DNA from: Candidatus Kaiserbacteria bacterium
Lineage (GTDB): Bacteria; Patescibacteriota; Minisyncoccia; Phycocordibacterales; UBA2100
Direction of reading: 5' to 3'
Assembly: GCA_016186695.1 (NCBI GenBank)
Contig: JACPLC010000003.1
Location: 1 to 49,318 of the forward strand
DNA: 49,318 bases
A program made the position numbers and the translations under genes. This document shows positions 5,944-39,721 of the stretch, one piece after another. The first letter of the stretch is position 1. Each line of letters opens with the position of its first letter. The notes beneath the pieces were generated by a model that did no database searches, was not told where the DNA came from, and saw only the letters and a list, made by a program, of their open reading frames with translations.

Positions 5944-7192
5944 TCTTGCCCATGTAGCCCCGCAGAGCCTCGGGGATTGTTATCGAGCCGTCAGCCTGTT
6001 GATTGTTCTCGACGATTTGCGTGAGGATTCGCGGAGTCGCGAGCGCAGTGTTGTTGAGCGAATGCACGTAGCGCAGTGTGCCGTCTTCGTCGCGGTAGCG
6101 GATGTTGAGGCGACGTGTCTGGAAATCGTGGAAGTACGAAGAGGAATGCGTCTCGCGATACTTCTTCTCGCTCGGCATCCACGCCTCGATGTCATACTTT
6201 TTCACCTGCCCCAAACCAAGGTCAGCCCCGCAATTTATGACGACGTGGTAGGGAAGCTGGAGCTCCTGCAAAAGCTTCTCTGCATTCTCGGTGATTTCCT
6301 CGTGGAGGCGGACGGATTCCTCGTGCTTCGCCTCGCACAAAAGCACCTGCTCGAACTTCTGAAATTCATGGATTCGGAAAATCCCCTTCGTATCCTTGCC
6401 ATGACTTCCCGCCTCGCGGCGAAAGCAGGGCGAGAATGAGAAAAACTTCAGCGGCAGATCGTTCTTCTCCAAGACCTCGTCCATGTAGTAACCCATCGTC
6501 GCTACCTCCGCGGTTCCCGCGAGGTAATCGCCGTCTTGCGTTTTGTAGAGATCTTCCTCACTCTGCGGCAGGTAGCCGGTGCCGACGAAACTCTCGCGCC
6601 GCACGAGCGAGGGCACGATCATCGGCGTAAAGCCTTTATCGGCAAACCTATCCTGCACGAATCGCTCGAGCGCCCATACCATGCGCGCGCCGTCGTTCTT
6701 AAGAAAGTAGCCGCGAAAGCCTGCAACCTTCGCGCCGCGCTCGTAATCAGCCATATCGTGCATGAGAAGGAGTTCCGTGTGGCTCTTGGGCTCGAAGGCA
6801 AACATGGGCTTTTCTCCCCATGAACGTATTTCTTTGTTGTCTGCATCCGAATCCCCTTCAGGTACCGAAACATCGGGCACATTGGGCACCTGCACCATGA
6901 GCGACCGCCACTCTTTGAGGATACCCTGCATGGATTCCTCTTCGAGTCGAAGCGTTTCTTTCACTTCCTGCATACGCGCGATAATTTTTTGTTTCTCGCC
7001 GGTGTCTTTGGCAGAGGTTATCGCGTCCGAGGCAGCGTTTTGCTCCGCGCGTTTCTCATCTATCTTCGCCTGCAGCTCACGGCGTTTGTCGTCGAGCGCA
7101 ATCAGTGCATCGAGGTTTATCTCGATGTGTTTCTTCTTTGCTCCCGCCGCGACAATATCCTTATTCTCGCGGATGAATTTGATGTCGAGCAT
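5921..7192 (-). CDS. serS: Seryl-tRNA synthetase
   Basis: Class II aminoacyl-tRNA synthetase charging tRNA-Ser. It starts MLDIKFIRENKDIV, followed by the long antiparallel coiled-coil arm (residues about 30-100). The catalytic core shows PMIVPSLVRRESFVGTGYLP, LAGTAEV, the motif 2 segment FSPCFRREAGSHGKDTKGIFRIHEFQKFE and motif 3 near the C-terminus (NTALATPRILTQIVENNQ). At 423 residues it has normal length. The ATG at 7192 is chosen over 7213 because alignment to the family begins there. A repeat (7193-7249) abuts this ATG and forms the 5' leader. Confidence 0.96.
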   Translation of the reverse strand: MLDIKFIRENKDIVAAGAKKKHIEINLDALIALDDKRRELQAKIDEKRAEQNAASDAITSAKDTGEKQKIIARMQEVKETLRLEEESMQGILKEWRSLMVQVPNVPDVSVPEGDSDADNKEIRSWGEKPMFAFEPKSHTELLLMHDMADYERGAKVAGFRGYFLKNDGARMVWALERFVQDRFADKGFTPMIVPSLVRRESFVGTGYLPQSEEDLYKTQDGDYLAGTAEVATMGYYMDEVLEKNDLPLKFFSFSPCFRREAGSHGKDTKGIFRIHEFQKFEQVLLCEAKHEESVRLHEEITENAEKLLQELQLPYHVVINCGADLGLGQVKKYDIEAWMPSEKKYRETHSSSYFHDFQTRRLNIRYRDEDGTLRYVHSLNNTALATPRILTQIVENNQQADGSITIPEALRGYMGKNEIRTSR

Positions 7193-7249
7193 GTTAGATT
7201 TTGTTACGAGCAAAGCGAGTTAGAAAATCTTACACCCTGTTAAATCCTC
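7193..7249. repeat. Solo repeat abutting the serS start codon, related to GIY-YIG element ends
   Basis: Read on the plus strand it begins GTTAG directly after the serS CAT and shares TTACGAG..GCGAGTTAGAAA..CTTACACCC with 15954-16016 upstream of rpmG. On the serS transcript it would fold as a hairpin (AGATTTT/AAAATCT) just before the AUG. Confidence 0.6.
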
Positions 7250-14524: not shown

Positions 14525-14543
14525 AAAAAAAGTATATCACGTG

Positions 14544-14703
14544 TGCCGGGAGAGAGACTTGCCCGCGGCTCTCGGCTCGTCGTCACTCGCCTCGGCCTGG
14601 GCACCAGCTCGCAGCCTCGCGTGCTCGCTCGGCATCGCTCCGCTGTTCAAGTCTCTCACGCTGCGTGCGCAGGCACGCAGCTTCCCAATGCTCGCTTCGC
14701 GAG
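14544..14703 (-). mobile_element. tRNA-Leu 3'-end-associated element (about 160 bp)
   Basis: The element follows the 3' end of tRNA-Leu(CAA). Plus-strand positions 14543-14561 repeat 14703-14721, i.e. the tRNA discriminator, acceptor strand and part of the T-arm (19 identical bases, 160 bp apart). Between them lie a 9-bp hairpin with a 4-base loop (14660-14681), an inverted exact 13-base copy of the T-arm (14645-14657) and a GC-rich core that is homologous to the element after tRNA-Lys (24893-25056). Confidence 0.65.
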
Positions 14704-14787
14704 TGCCGGGAGAGAGACTTGAACTCTCATGACCTTGCGGTCGAACGATCTTGAGTCGTTTGCGTCTGCCAATTCCGCCATCCCGGC
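14704..14787 (-). tRNA. tRNA-Leu (anticodon CAA)
   Basis: Acceptor GCCGGGA/TCCCGGC with discriminator A, GG-containing D-loop, anticodon loop CTCAAGA, long variable arm and T-loop TTCAAGT. No encoded CCA. Position 37 is G, so it lacks the A36-A37-A38 target preferred by the neighbouring MiaA. Confidence 0.95.
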
Positions 14788-15794: not shown

Positions 15795-15953
15795 TCACTT
15801 TTTTGTCTCTTTGTGAACGGTGTGCGCTCTACACCAGCGGCAGTACTTCTTGACTTCGATTTTGCGCTCGACAAGCTTCTTGTTCTTACGCGACCAGTAG
15901 TTGGTGCGCCCGCACTTGCTGCAGGCCATTTTTATCAATTGCTCTTGGGACAT
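15795..15953 (-). CDS. rpmG: 50S ribosomal protein L33
   Basis: A 52-residue protein: MACSKCGRTNYWSRKNKK then KYCRWCRAHTVHKETKK, with two CxxC zinc-ribbon pairs and the family's basic composition. Met9 is a possible alternative start, but the ATG at 15953 keeps the element-to-start-codon junction seen at serS. The repeat at 15954-16016 directly abuts this ATG and would form a hairpin leader. Confidence 0.92.
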   Translation of the reverse strand: MSQEQLIKMACSKCGRTNYWSRKNKKLVERKIEVKKYCRWCRAHTVHKETKK

Positions 15954-16328
15954 GTTAGTTTTTCTTACGAGTGGAGCGAGTTAGAAATAACTTACACCCG
16001 CCTAAATTTTGAACGAAAGATTTTTAATGTATCTGGAATAGACCTCTCTAGATAATTCCTACCCCACCCAGTCTTAAGGTACGTCTCGCGTTGCATTGCG
16101 TCCTTCCGACTCGCATGCAACTCGCAGTACAAAAGTTCGAGCGGTCTTCGCAAAGATGTTGCCGGAACGCGTCCAGCATTATGCTCTGCGAGTCGCGCCT
16201 TTATATCACGGCATGAACCTGTGTACAAATTGCCGTCTTTCAGACTACCGAGGACGTAGACGCAATGCATCGTTCAAAATTTGGGCGGGTTAGAAAAATA
16301 TAGTCGCTTCACTCGTTATTTTTCTAAC
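15954..16328 (-). mobile_element. GIY-YIG gene enclosed by ~60-bp inverted repeats
   Basis: The end at 15954-16016 and the reverse complement of 16270-16328 share GTTAG, ACGAGTG-AGCGA and CCCGCC-AAATTTTGAACGA (19 of 20 in the last block). The GIY-YIG coding sequence lies between them, with its last codons inside the inner repeat and its ATG touching the other. One outer end abuts the rpmG start codon; the other supplies the TAG stop of the 16324-16728 gene. A solo related end sits at serS (7193-7249). No target duplication was identified. Confidence 0.5.
15992..16270 (-). CDS. GIY-YIG nuclease-domain protein
   Basis: A 92-residue stand-alone GIY-YIG domain: HCVYVLGSLKDGNLYTGSCRDIKARLAEHNAGRVPATSLRRPLELLYCE. 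The Tyr, Gly, Arg (ARLAEHN) and Glu (RETYLKTGWGRNYL) expected for the fold are visible; the second motif reads LYTG. It is similar in layout to YhbQ/UvrC-N-like proteins common in Patescibacteria. The biological role is unknown. The gene sits precisely within inverted repeats, so it may be the mobile part of a small element. Confidence 0.88.
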   Translation of the reverse strand: MHCVYVLGSLKDGNLYTGSCRDIKARLAEHNAGRVPATSLRRPLELLYCELHASRKDAMQRETYLKTGWGRNYLERSIPDTLKIFRSKFRRV

Positions 16329-24819: not shown

Positions 24820-24892
24820 CCGCCCGTAGCTCAACTGGTAGAGCAGCCGCCTCTTAAGCGGTTGGTTCCGCGTTCGAGTCGCGGCGGGCGGA
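24820..24892 (+). tRNA. tRNA-Lys (anticodon CTT)
   Basis: Acceptor CCGCCCG/CGGGCGG, discriminator A, anticodon loop CTCTTAA, T-loop TTCGAGT. No CCA encoded. Its last 17 bases plus two are repeated at 25038-25056. Confidence 0.95.
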
Positions 24893-25056
24893 CACGAACG
24901 GAGTGAGTGCCGCTCGAGCAGTGTGCCTTCGCACACTGCGTCCCGACGAGAACGCCGGAGCGATGAGAGGCGAGCTCGCCGAGCAGCGAGGCGGTGCCCA
25001 GACCGAGGCGAGCGACGGCGAGCCGAGAGTCGAGGGAGAGTCGCGGCGGGCGGACA
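24893..25056 (+). mobile_element. tRNA-Lys 3'-end-associated element (about 162 bp)
   Basis: 25038-25056 is an exact 19-base direct copy of 24876-24894 (T-arm half, acceptor strand, discriminator). Inside are hairpin GCAGTGTGC-CTTC-GCACACTGC (24918-24939), a partial inverted T-arm copy (24940-24953), a GGCGAGCTCGCC palindrome and the core GGTGCCCAG-CCGAGGCGAG-GACG-CGAGCCGAGAG that is shared with the element after tRNA-Leu (14544-14703). Order and spacing are the same in both. Confidence 0.65.
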
Positions 25057-31006: not shown

Positions 31007-31037
31007 CATATTATGGATGTCGGACATCCATAATATG
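31007..31037. repeat. RAYT-associated palindrome, upstream copy
   Basis: Arms of 15 bp, CATATTATGGATGTC and GACATCCATAATATG, around one G. It ends 13 bases before the transposase ATG. The core ATGGATGTC-G-GACATCCAT is repeated at 31196-31218 and 31731-31753. Confidence 0.88.
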
Positions 31038-31050
31038 CTACGCTCGCTCT

Positions 31051-31719
31051 ATGGAGTTGTATCATGTGTTGAACAGAGGAACCGAGAAACGCGACATATT
31101 CATGGACGATCGCGATCGAGCGCGCTTCGTGCATGACCTGTTCGAATTCAACGACACAAAACCCGCGAGCAACGTCGCATATTCATTCAAAAGAAATATG
31201 GATGTCGGACATCCATATATTGAGCGGGAGCGAATCGTCGATCTTCATGCATGGTGTCTAATGCGCAATCACTATCACCTTCTAATCTCCGAACGAATGG
31301 ATGGTGGTACCACCACGTTTATGCGAAAGCTCAACACTGGATATACCAACTATTTCAACGAGCGGTACAAACGCAGCGGCGTGCTTTTTCAGGGAAAAAC
31401 AAAGAAAGTTCTCATCCATTCACGAGCACATTTTTTGCATGTCATCCACTACATTCACCTAAATCCCCTGGACTACGTTTCAAGCGCACGGGAGTGGCGA
31501 AACGGCCGAGTCGCTGACGCCGCGACTGCAAAGAAACGTCTTGAACAGTATCGCTGGAGCAGCTTCTTGGATTATTCCGGAAAAAAGAATTTCCCCTCTG
31601 TCCTATACCCCGACTTCTTTCGGGACGCCATCGGCGACGTGGGAAAGAAGACTCTGGAGTATCTCGGCAAGCCGCGTAACGCGCTTGACGATACGTTGCC
31701 TTCCCGATTTCTCGAGTAA
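31051..31719 (+). CDS. REP-associated tyrosine transposase (RAYT, Y1 HUH family)
   Basis: 222 residues of the IS200-like Y1 transposase superfamily. ELYHVLNRGTEKRDIF (first strand), HUH motif in LMRNHYHLLI, catalytic tyrosine region FMRKLNTGYTNYFNERYKRSGVLFQG, and the RAYT-typical HFLHVIHYIHLNPLDYV and YRWSSFLDY. All key residues are present. The N-terminus begins slightly later than in typical RAYTs. A copy of its own palindrome (31196-31218) is read in frame as NMDVGHPY between strands, so activity may be altered. Single copies of the same palindrome flank it. Confidence 0.9.
   Translation: MELYHVLNRGTEKRDIFMDDRDRARFVHDLFEFNDTKPASNVAYSFKRNMDVGHPYIERERIVDLHAWCLMRNHYHLLISERMDGGTTTFMRKLNTGYTNYFNERYKRSGVLFQGKTKKVLIHSRAHFLHVIHYIHLNPLDYVSSAREWRNGRVADAATAKKRLEQYRWSSFLDYSGKKNFPSVLYPDFFRDAIGDVGKKTLEYLGKPRNALDDTLPSRFLE
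31196..31218. repeat. RAYT palindrome, copy inside the transposase gene
   Basis: ATATGGATGTC-G-GACATCCATAT, perfect arms of 11 bp; in frame within the coding sequence. Confidence 0.88.
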
Positions 31720-31730
31720 AATTATGTATG

Positions 31731-31753
31731 TTATGGATGTCGGACATCCATAA
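31731..31753. repeat. RAYT palindrome, downstream copy
   Basis: TTATGGATGTC-G-GACATCCATAA, 11-bp perfect arms, 11 bases after the transposase stop. Confidence 0.88.
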
Positions 31754-31811
31754 TATATACTGTGGAATATATAGAAACTCTGCGAAGACTATTCTGATGG
31801 GAAATCGGTGT

Positions 31812-38982: not shown

Positions 38983-39579
38983 ATGGAACATCCCGTGATG
39001 AAGGGAAACACATCACCGGAGACTCAAAAAAAGAATTCGCAGGGCTCACTCTTGGGTTATACAGTTGTCGCGCTCGGCCTTGCTCTCTTTATCCGTTTTT
39101 TTGTCGCGGCGCCGTACGTCGTTTCGGGCGCTTCGATGGATCCGGGCTTTGAAGACTGGCACTACCTCATTATTGACCGTATCTCGTACGATATCGGCGA
39201 CCCACAAAGGGGCGACGTCATTGTTTTCGACCTTCCGCAAGAGGGCGGACGCTCACTCATCAAGCGTGTTATCGGCATCCCTGGAGAAACCGTCATTCTC
39301 AACGGGCAGAGCGTGACCATTGTGAACGAAAAACACCCGAAAGGATTCACTCTTGAGGAACCCTACCTCGACCCCAAGAATCTCGAAGGCTCAAACGACA
39401 TGCGTGTCACGCTCGGGGAGGATGAATATTTCGTGCTCGGCGACAATCGCCGTGTTTCGGCAGACTCGCGCATCTGGGGAACGCTTGCCCGCGAGAACAT
39501 TGTCGGCCGCGCACTCATCCGTCTCTACCCGCTCGATCAAATCTCACTCCTGCCCGGAGAAGCGCGGTACGAAGAATAA
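38983..39579 (+). CDS. lepB: Signal peptidase I
   Basis: Ser-Lys dyad membrane protease that removes Sec signal peptides. One transmembrane helix (about 24-45), then YVVSGASMDPGF with nucleophile Ser51, RGDVIVFDLP, SLIKRVIGIPGETV with Lys94, and VLGDNRRVSADSRIWG (box E). 198 residues with a single membrane span, as in Gram-positive-type enzymes. It can serve the many signal-peptide proteins of the window. Confidence 0.95.
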   Translation: MEHPVMKGNTSPETQKKNSQGSLLGYTVVALGLALFIRFFVAAPYVVSGASMDPGFEDWHYLIIDRISYDIGDPQRGDVIVFDLPQEGGRSLIKRVIGIPGETVILNGQSVTIVNEKHPKGFTLEEPYLDPKNLEGSNDMRVTLGEDEYFVLGDNRRVSADSRIWGTLARENIVGRALIRLYPLDQISLLPGEARYEE

Positions 39580-39591
39580 ATCCGAAGTACG

Positions 39592-39712
39592 AAATCCTAA
39601 ACTCGAAACAAATTCGAAATATGAAATTCGAAATCAAAAACGAAATGCCGAGTTCGTTTCGAACTTTGAATTTGAAAATTTGTGCTTGTTTAGGATTTCG
39701 AGTTTAGGATTT
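39592..39712. repeat. AT-rich inverted-repeat (MITE-like) unit
   Basis: 17-bp exact inverted arms AAATCCTAAACTCGAAA (39592-39608) and TTTCGAGTTTAGGATTT (39696-39712) enclose AT-rich sequence with further AAATTCGAAAT-type symmetry. Base composition is sharply different from its surroundings. It lies between lepB and the HisRS-like gene, ending 9 bases before the latter's ATG. Confidence 0.75.
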
Positions 39713-39721
39713 AGAATTTTT

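Follow-up and report, generated by a model that had tools for sequence, protein, structure and literature searches.

A probable family of small mobile elements at gene 3′ ends of Patescibacteria, each well-preserved copy bearing an antisense guide to its own host gene

In IS608, the cleavage site at each end is base-paired to a guide that lies 5′ of the hairpin (PMC5934647). Integrase-borne elements, including phages, ICEs and islands, insert into the 3′ part of tRNA genes, restore the gene and leave a distal direct repeat (PMC8371274). REPs are 20-50 nt long and intergenic, and mostly have GTAG in front (PMC8266576). The window analysed here, a 49,318-nt stretch of DNA from a Candidatus Kaiserbacteria bacterium, contains two complete inserted units, one at tRNA-Lys(CTT) and one at tRNA-Leu(CAA), in which a gene-restoring repeat is combined with an internal antisense copy of the target, and which very probably represent a mobile element carrying a replacement gene end.

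The earlier note on this DNA had reported an exact recurrence of the tRNA-Lys(CTT) 3′ end, and both the recurrence and its coordinates (24876-24894 and 25038-25056) are correct. The Lys and Leu inserts can indeed be aligned, with the hairpin, an inverted T-arm segment, GGAGCGATG, GGTGCCCAG..CCGAGGCGAG and CGAGCCGAGAG in common order, and the hairpin differs at two stem positions, both compensated, exactly as had been claimed. The likeness of the two inserts is not due to chance, as a third copy is present in the same genome, on another contig and 3′ of tRNA-Pro(GGG), and hundreds of further matches to a model of the element were found. The parts of the window copies are as follows.

24820 to 24893, plus strand: tRNA-Lys(CTT), host gene of the Lys copy (ARAGORN, Rfam tRNA)
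24876 to 25037, plus strand: complete inserted unit at tRNA-Lys, 162 nt (direct-repeat borders; model match of 126.4 bits)
24875/24876, left junction of the Lys unit, GTTC^GAGTC; the right junction is GAGGGA^GAGTC
24872 to 24884, plus strand: target segment T2, tRNA G53 to C65, the pairing partner of the guide
24876 to 24894, plus strand: proximal copy of the tRNA-Lys 3′ tail, GAGTCGCGGCGGGCGGACA (exact 19-nt direct repeat)
24895 to 24915, plus strand: spacer, the end of which re-complements the acceptor strand (fold of tRNA plus element)
24916 to 24940, plus strand: hairpin H1 of the Lys copy, with a stem that covaries among copies
24941 to 24953, plus strand: Lys guide, antisense to T-loop and T-stem, with a tandem GA mismatch
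24954 to 24992, plus strand: P2/H2 module, GCC-GGAGCGATG-stem-AGCN-stem-GCGAG-GGC (covarying pairs)
24993 to 25037, plus strand: P4/H3 module, closed at its base where the element ends on the right (GCCC..GAGGGA^)
25038 to 25056, plus strand: distal copy of the tRNA-Lys 3′ tail, GAGTCGCGGCGGGCGGACA (exact 19-nt direct repeat)
14703 to 14787, minus strand: tRNA-Leu(CAA), which hosts the other window copy (ARAGORN)
14561 to 14720, minus strand: complete inserted unit at tRNA-Leu, 160 nt (model match of 131.3 bits; empty orthologous site in genome G026)
14645 to 14657, minus strand: Leu guide, a perfect 13-nt complement of GTTCAAGTCTCTC
14720 to 14702, minus strand: proximal tRNA-Leu tail
14542 to 14560, minus strand: distal tRNA-Leu 3′ tail, beyond which lies native downstream sequence

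The segment resembling an inverted T-arm is no tRNA relic but a guide in antisense to the host gene. It is present as described, but in the Lys copy it is an imperfect complement of its own tRNA, with a tandem GA/GA mismatch (target C-GA-G, guide C-GA-G) and further differences; the guides of the Leu and Pro copies are perfect complements over 13 and 12 nt, respectively. A fourth, weaker copy in the same genome follows tRNA-Val CAC (L002:1208-1326, 37 bits); its guide uses a second register, in which the 3′ terminus of the tRNA takes the place of the T-loop as pairing partner, and this copy has no tail repeat behind it. The window also contains other repeats: a 37-nt repeat (7190-7226 and 15951-15987) with TTACGAG-x-AAGCGAGTTAG-type mini-hairpins resembling those of the element spacers, a 29-nt near-perfect palindrome, ATATTATGGATGTCGGACATCCATAATAT, in three copies (31008-31036, 31193-31221 and 31728-31756), and an imperfect inverted repeat of 57 nt with a 23-nt loop (39577-39713).

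A covariance model, R1, built from the three copies at tRNA-Lys, tRNA-Leu and tRNA-Pro, detects at least 298 copies (E ≤ 0.01); of the 98 related genomes searched, 75 have matches, with 1 to 14 copies per genome. Matches were also found in 60 of 286 genomes sampled across the class and in 16 of 287 sampled across the phylum, eight of these 16 lying outside the class; as the filters were strict, the class and phylum counts are lower bounds. All records with names belong to Patescibacteria (Kaiserbacteria, Komeilibacteria, Magasanikbacteria, Kuenenbacteria and Paceibacterota). An exact-pattern scan of public genomes was too permissive, giving mostly chance matches outside Patescibacteria, and a viral origin was rejected, as 84 viral contigs matching a 16-base piece gave zero model matches. 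Presence is sporadic, the element being absent from the complete genomes G002 and G015 of the same genus. A search of 4227 Rfam families returned only tRNA, tmRNA and chance matches, and none for the element itself, and no description of it was found in Rfam or in the open papers searched.

The element is non-coding, and all copies share a covarying fold of about 115 nt. The consensus stems are H1, P2 (GCC/GGC, AGC/GCT, GGC/GCC), H2 (AGCN loop) and H3 (GNCG-type loop), and among 100 copies double changes occur in 26 of the 27 consensus stem pairs. A set of 38 copies of fixed length adds P4, which is 94.7% paired, has double changes at all three of its pairs, and closes with its base pairs at the right end of the element. 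The earlier proposals that structure rather than sequence is conserved, and that target-specific ends sit on a shared core, are borne out over 100-159 copies. Pairs of the G-U type account for 2.3% in the element, compared with 3.7-4.0% in tRNAs at the same loci, and G-U content does not separate DNA from RNA because tRNA stems are low as well. In two copies (L091:401-566 and L189:401-572), H2 contains an additional inserted hairpin of about 50 nt.

Copies are concentrated at the 3′ ends of genes. Specifically, 111 of 159 distinct copies start within 100 nt past a tRNA 3′ end, at a median distance of 25 nt, compared with about 0.8% expected near tRNA 3′ ends from the tRNA density of the window. 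The expectation that matches would sit at tRNA 3′ ends therefore holds for these 111, but about 30% lack an upstream tRNA call by ARAGORN; the terminal repeat, for its part, matches the adjoining tRNA wherever it is preserved. Several copies lacking an upstream tRNA call lie at tmRNA or protein-gene 3′ ends, and a few at contig ends or unassigned positions, and therefore tRNA is not the sole target class. The tmRNA sites are L012, L042 and L093, of which L042 is confirmed by the Rfam search. The protein-gene sites, named by reading upstream codons or short C-terminal peptides and not from a database result, are putative 3′ ends of rpsI (L081, L172) and rpsR (L160, L176, L460, L471), apparent topA-like zinc-ribbon C-termini (L092, L185, L197, L201, L208) and a candidate pilin-like protein ending MMGSSQ (L070, L074, L159, L178, L181, L214). 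A fixed target tetranucleotide (GTTC, as for IS91) was rejected because the left flanks at protein-gene sites differ (GGGA, GGAC). In tandem arrays (L070, L184, L190, L202, L210, L212), a second element with another guide lies just downstream of the first or in its distal tail. Upstream of one element near a contig end (L016:63-136, genome G043), ARAGORN calls a tRNA with anticodon TTA, which would read the UAA stop.

Every well-preserved copy has two host-matching parts, the direct repeat of the gene 3′ end and the internal antisense guide. The guide occupies the segment before P2 and spans the left junction of the host gene (GTTC^GATTCC in tRNAs), whose sequence it repeats in reverse complement; guides against the T-loop cover the four bases upstream of the junction (GTTC) and about nine downstream. 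Scored without an anchor, the fit of guides to their own tRNA tails is 9.27, compared with 5.83 (sd 0.14) when tails are shuffled among copies. In within-genome contests (n=250), the own tRNA is preferred to a sister tRNA in 210, is worse in 22 and ties in 18. The T2/guide helix is 91.9% paired, compared with 78.4% after shuffling (maximum 81.2) and 24-53% after sliding. A C-GA-G target is often faced by a C-GA-G guide (the window Lys copy, L017, L028, L051, L062, L065), and this tandem GA mismatch points to a paired structure that has been kept, rather than to a copy of the sequence. Some tRNA copies (among them L071, L162 and the tRNA-Val copy described above) use the second register. The location at gene 3′ ends, the replacement of the gene end that is displaced and the short internal mirror copy of the host gene together suggest mobility, with the target recognised by base pairing.

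Complementarity to the host gene extends beyond the guide. The acceptor strand is often re-complemented too, and in copies at tmRNA, at rpsR and at many tRNAs the entire gene end (target-T) is found again as T′, interrupted by H1; at the rpsR copy L176, for example, GACTCCTGCCTTTCATCCAGAAGTAAAAA has the counterpart TTTTTACTTCTGGATG-H1-AAAGGACAGGAGTC. Spacers contain either a GCGNAGC/ACGNAGT mini-hairpin (41 of 85, with 1.2 expected) or a terminator-like hairpin. One locus at an rpsR end (L478, genome G020) has the gene end, the loop and a complementary T′ with H1, and is missing the P2/P4 core; it is possibly a solo left part or a relic.

The distal repeat begins exactly at the end of the element, and its length varies, from 13-52 nt at tRNAs to about 70 nt at topA. 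At rpsR and topA, the proximal and the distal ends both read as functional C-termini, with their reading frames kept, and comparison of the two ends gives 42 synonymous and 12 nonsynonymous codon differences, with 11/7/52 changes at the three codon positions. The synonymous share of 78% compares with 15% expected and with a maximum of 34% in 2000 simulations. Because the divergence of the flanking ends is mostly synonymous, they represent two functional alleles, the element bringing a replacement gene end in the manner of integrative elements; two divergent, separately constrained ends do not fit a target-site duplication at insertion as their source. The simplest account of these sequences would be that the element arrives with a gene end from another lineage. 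As an alternative, both ends might remain in use through frequent excision of the unit, which would also require precise excision. In genome G026, the orthologous tRNA-Leu(CAA)-parB gene pair is found without the element, and at the filled tRNA-Leu site the sequence past the distal tail resembles the native downstream sequence.

The relationships among cores indicate movement between genes. The nearest core relative is rarely at the same tRNA (9 of 152 copies; 1.8 by chance) or in the same genome (15 of 152; 3.3 by chance), although these counts are above chance. The core of the window Lys copy is 95% identical to that of a copy at tRNA-Arg(CCT) in genome G027, and the two differ in their guides (TCCCGACGAGAAC and TGCAGGAATCGAAC, respectively), H1 stem and tail, each fitting its own tRNA. 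More generally, cores 93-95% identical are found at different tRNAs with different guides, each fitting its own target, and type-B cores are common to topA-like, rpsI, tRNA-Val and tRNA-Met sites at 88-90% identity. Target-specific lineages exist too, at rpsR, topA and tRNA-Ile; inheritance of guides purely by such lineages is partly true of these clusters, and was rejected as a general account as most nearest neighbours are at different genes. Near-identical cores with different guides that fit their own targets mean that guides were re-set on many occasions, whether through copying of the target at insertion or through rapid selection. It is conceivable, and we put it forward tentatively, that the antisense guide is rewritten from each new target on jumping, the address being learned on arrival and then spread horizontally as a cassette that replaces gene ends; the rewriting could proceed, for example, by fold-back copying of the gene end, primed for instance at the terminator hairpin.

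Mobility is well supported; the chemistry is what we infer from the layout of the ends. The moving unit would consist of a replacement 3′ end of the target gene, a small loop, H1, the guide, P2/H2 and P4/H3, and would insert between the left half of the target and its 3′ end. The 3′ end carried in would join the gene, leaving it intact, and the native 3′ end would be pushed downstream to form the distal direct repeat. Located at the 5′ foot of the P2/H2 hairpin, the guide would pair across the left junction, and the 5′ strand of P4 would pair with the last bases of the right end. The IS200/IS605-like layout suggests that a folded single strand, presumably DNA, would be excised and inserted strand-specifically, with catalysis by an enzyme supplied in trans, and the combination of IS608-type geometry with an integrase-type gene-restoring repeat points to guide-directed, probably single-stranded integration in trans. 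Taken as a whole, a guided single-strand mechanism of a non-autonomous element, integrating at gene 3′ ends and finding its target by base pairing, is a serious candidate that we place slightly below even chances.

No enzyme gene is encoded within the 160-162-nt unit, and family-profile searches for RT, Y1 transposase and tyrosine recombinase over 95 genomes gave none that tracks the element. RT (PF00078) does not correlate with the element (rho -0.07) and is missing from G000, from G028 and from many others that are rich in it; reverse transcription in the style of LINEs or group II introns was rejected as the leading model on these grounds, the window's own genome being among those that lack RT. 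Within the genus, Y1 transposase is found in 38 of 44 genomes with the element and in 7 of 8 without it (rho -0.02), at least one complete genome, G067, has five element copies and no Y1 match, and the Y1 loci examined contain no element above noise. Tyrosine recombinase is nearly always represented by one Xer-type gene, whatever the copy number.

That Xer-type gene, present in almost every genome, would be expected if a tyrosine recombinase, either host Xer or an integrase since lost, had integrated the copies site-specifically as double strands, as minimal att-flanked elements or remnants of larger islands, with the inverted segment as part of a folded or arm-type attachment site. The 3′ ends of tmRNA and protein genes are known integrase targets, which also counts for this explanation. 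Integrase att sites typically have direct repeats that begin in the T-loop, reach the 3′ end of the tRNA and restore the gene (PMC8371274). We nevertheless consider it unlikely: a single enzyme would have to accept many unrelated cores (every tRNA family, rpsR, rpsI and topA), no integrase is found in or beside the window copies, a unit of ~160 nt kept in hundreds of copies does not fit random remnants, and ordinary att sites contain nothing that corresponds to the antisense guide.

An improbable alternative places the element at the RNA level, as a folded transcript acting in cis (a T-loop intron-like unit, or a 3′-processing or attenuation device) or moving by reverse splicing and reverse transcription, the guide/target pairing then being a P1 or EBS/IBS helix. 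Intron-like excision of the unit would leave the gene intact, reading frames are kept in both gene-end copies, and the lowest-energy folds of all three copies from the window's own genome pair the tRNA 5′ acceptor strand with the distal tail (z -4.3 to -5.4), locking the proximal tail against guide and spacer. However, no Rfam match was found, group I and group II introns included, no known self-splicing intron has a core as small as this, the RT genes are missing as described, and the proximal gene end is already intact without splicing. The predicted folds would be compatible with some role at the RNA level. Very unlikely, in our judgement, is a non-mobile, vertically inherited cis element that benefits the host, for example as a protector of tRNA or mRNA 3′ ends or as a terminator, with repeats formed by recombination between homologous gene ends. 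The T1/T1′ complementarity at rpsR is kept across species despite differing codon wobble positions (G031, G009, G004, G020), and many spacers have the terminator or GCGNAGC mini-hairpins described above, both of which such a role would explain, but the sporadic presence with absence from G002 and G015, the empty orthologous site in G026, the nearest relatives at different genes and the tandem insertions all speak against it.

Read as a guided mobile element, the family matters in several respects. Its copies number in the hundreds to thousands within a large radiation of bacteria, and it is missing from Rfam. It would add natural guide-programmed integration, with 10-14 nt of complementarity, to a short list headed by IS608 and CRISPR-associated transposons, and would represent a third strategy by which the ends of tRNA and other genes serve as safe places to land. 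Because the guide matches its own target, the mechanism is directly testable, and guide rewriting, if true, would make this a new kind of element. Furthermore, duplicated ends after tRNAs, tmRNA, rpsR and topA in Patescibacteria mark these insertions, which calls for caution in annotation.

By the tests run, the element falls outside IS200/IS605, the integrase elements and the introns, and probably outside the REPs; it shares features with each. Like mobile group I and II introns, it has an internal guide that pairs with the 5′-junction sequence; unlike them, it has no intron core (Rfam negative), is much smaller, is not co-distributed with RT, and is flanked by a gene copy that is already intact. 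Like REP/RAYT systems, it is a short, structured, non-coding repeat with a GGAG/GTAG-like tetranucleotide before a hairpin (here GGAG, preceding H2), in genomes where Y1-like genes are common, whereas REPs have neither a target-matching guide nor a gene-end repeat. Canonical IS200/IS605 elements are not known to carry a gene 3′ end or to leave direct repeats; the present element adds H1 and a replacement gene 3′ end, and direct repeats remain. In addition, its guide is 10-14 nt rather than 4, differs per copy and matches the copy's own host gene, and a Y1 transposase is neither encoded by the element nor co-distributed with it within the genus. Like tyrosine-recombinase elements, it inserts in the 3′ part of tRNA, tmRNA and protein genes, restores the gene and leaves a distal repeat (PMC8371274), but it is only about 160 nt long, has no integrase, uses very many unrelated targets as one family, and contains an internal antisense copy of the target. 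With IS200/IS605 it shares a subterminal hairpin at either end and precise insertion 3′ of a fixed left flank; on the left, a guide immediately 5′ of the hairpin pairs with junction and target, and on the right, the strand 5′ of the hairpin pairs with the end of the element (PMC5934647). The guide pairing with the predicted cleavage site that is characteristic of IS200/IS605 is present, the T2/guide helix being paired with covariation and P4 likewise paired at the levels given above. The best reading is therefore a small non-autonomous integrative element with a layout resembling IS200/IS605 ends.
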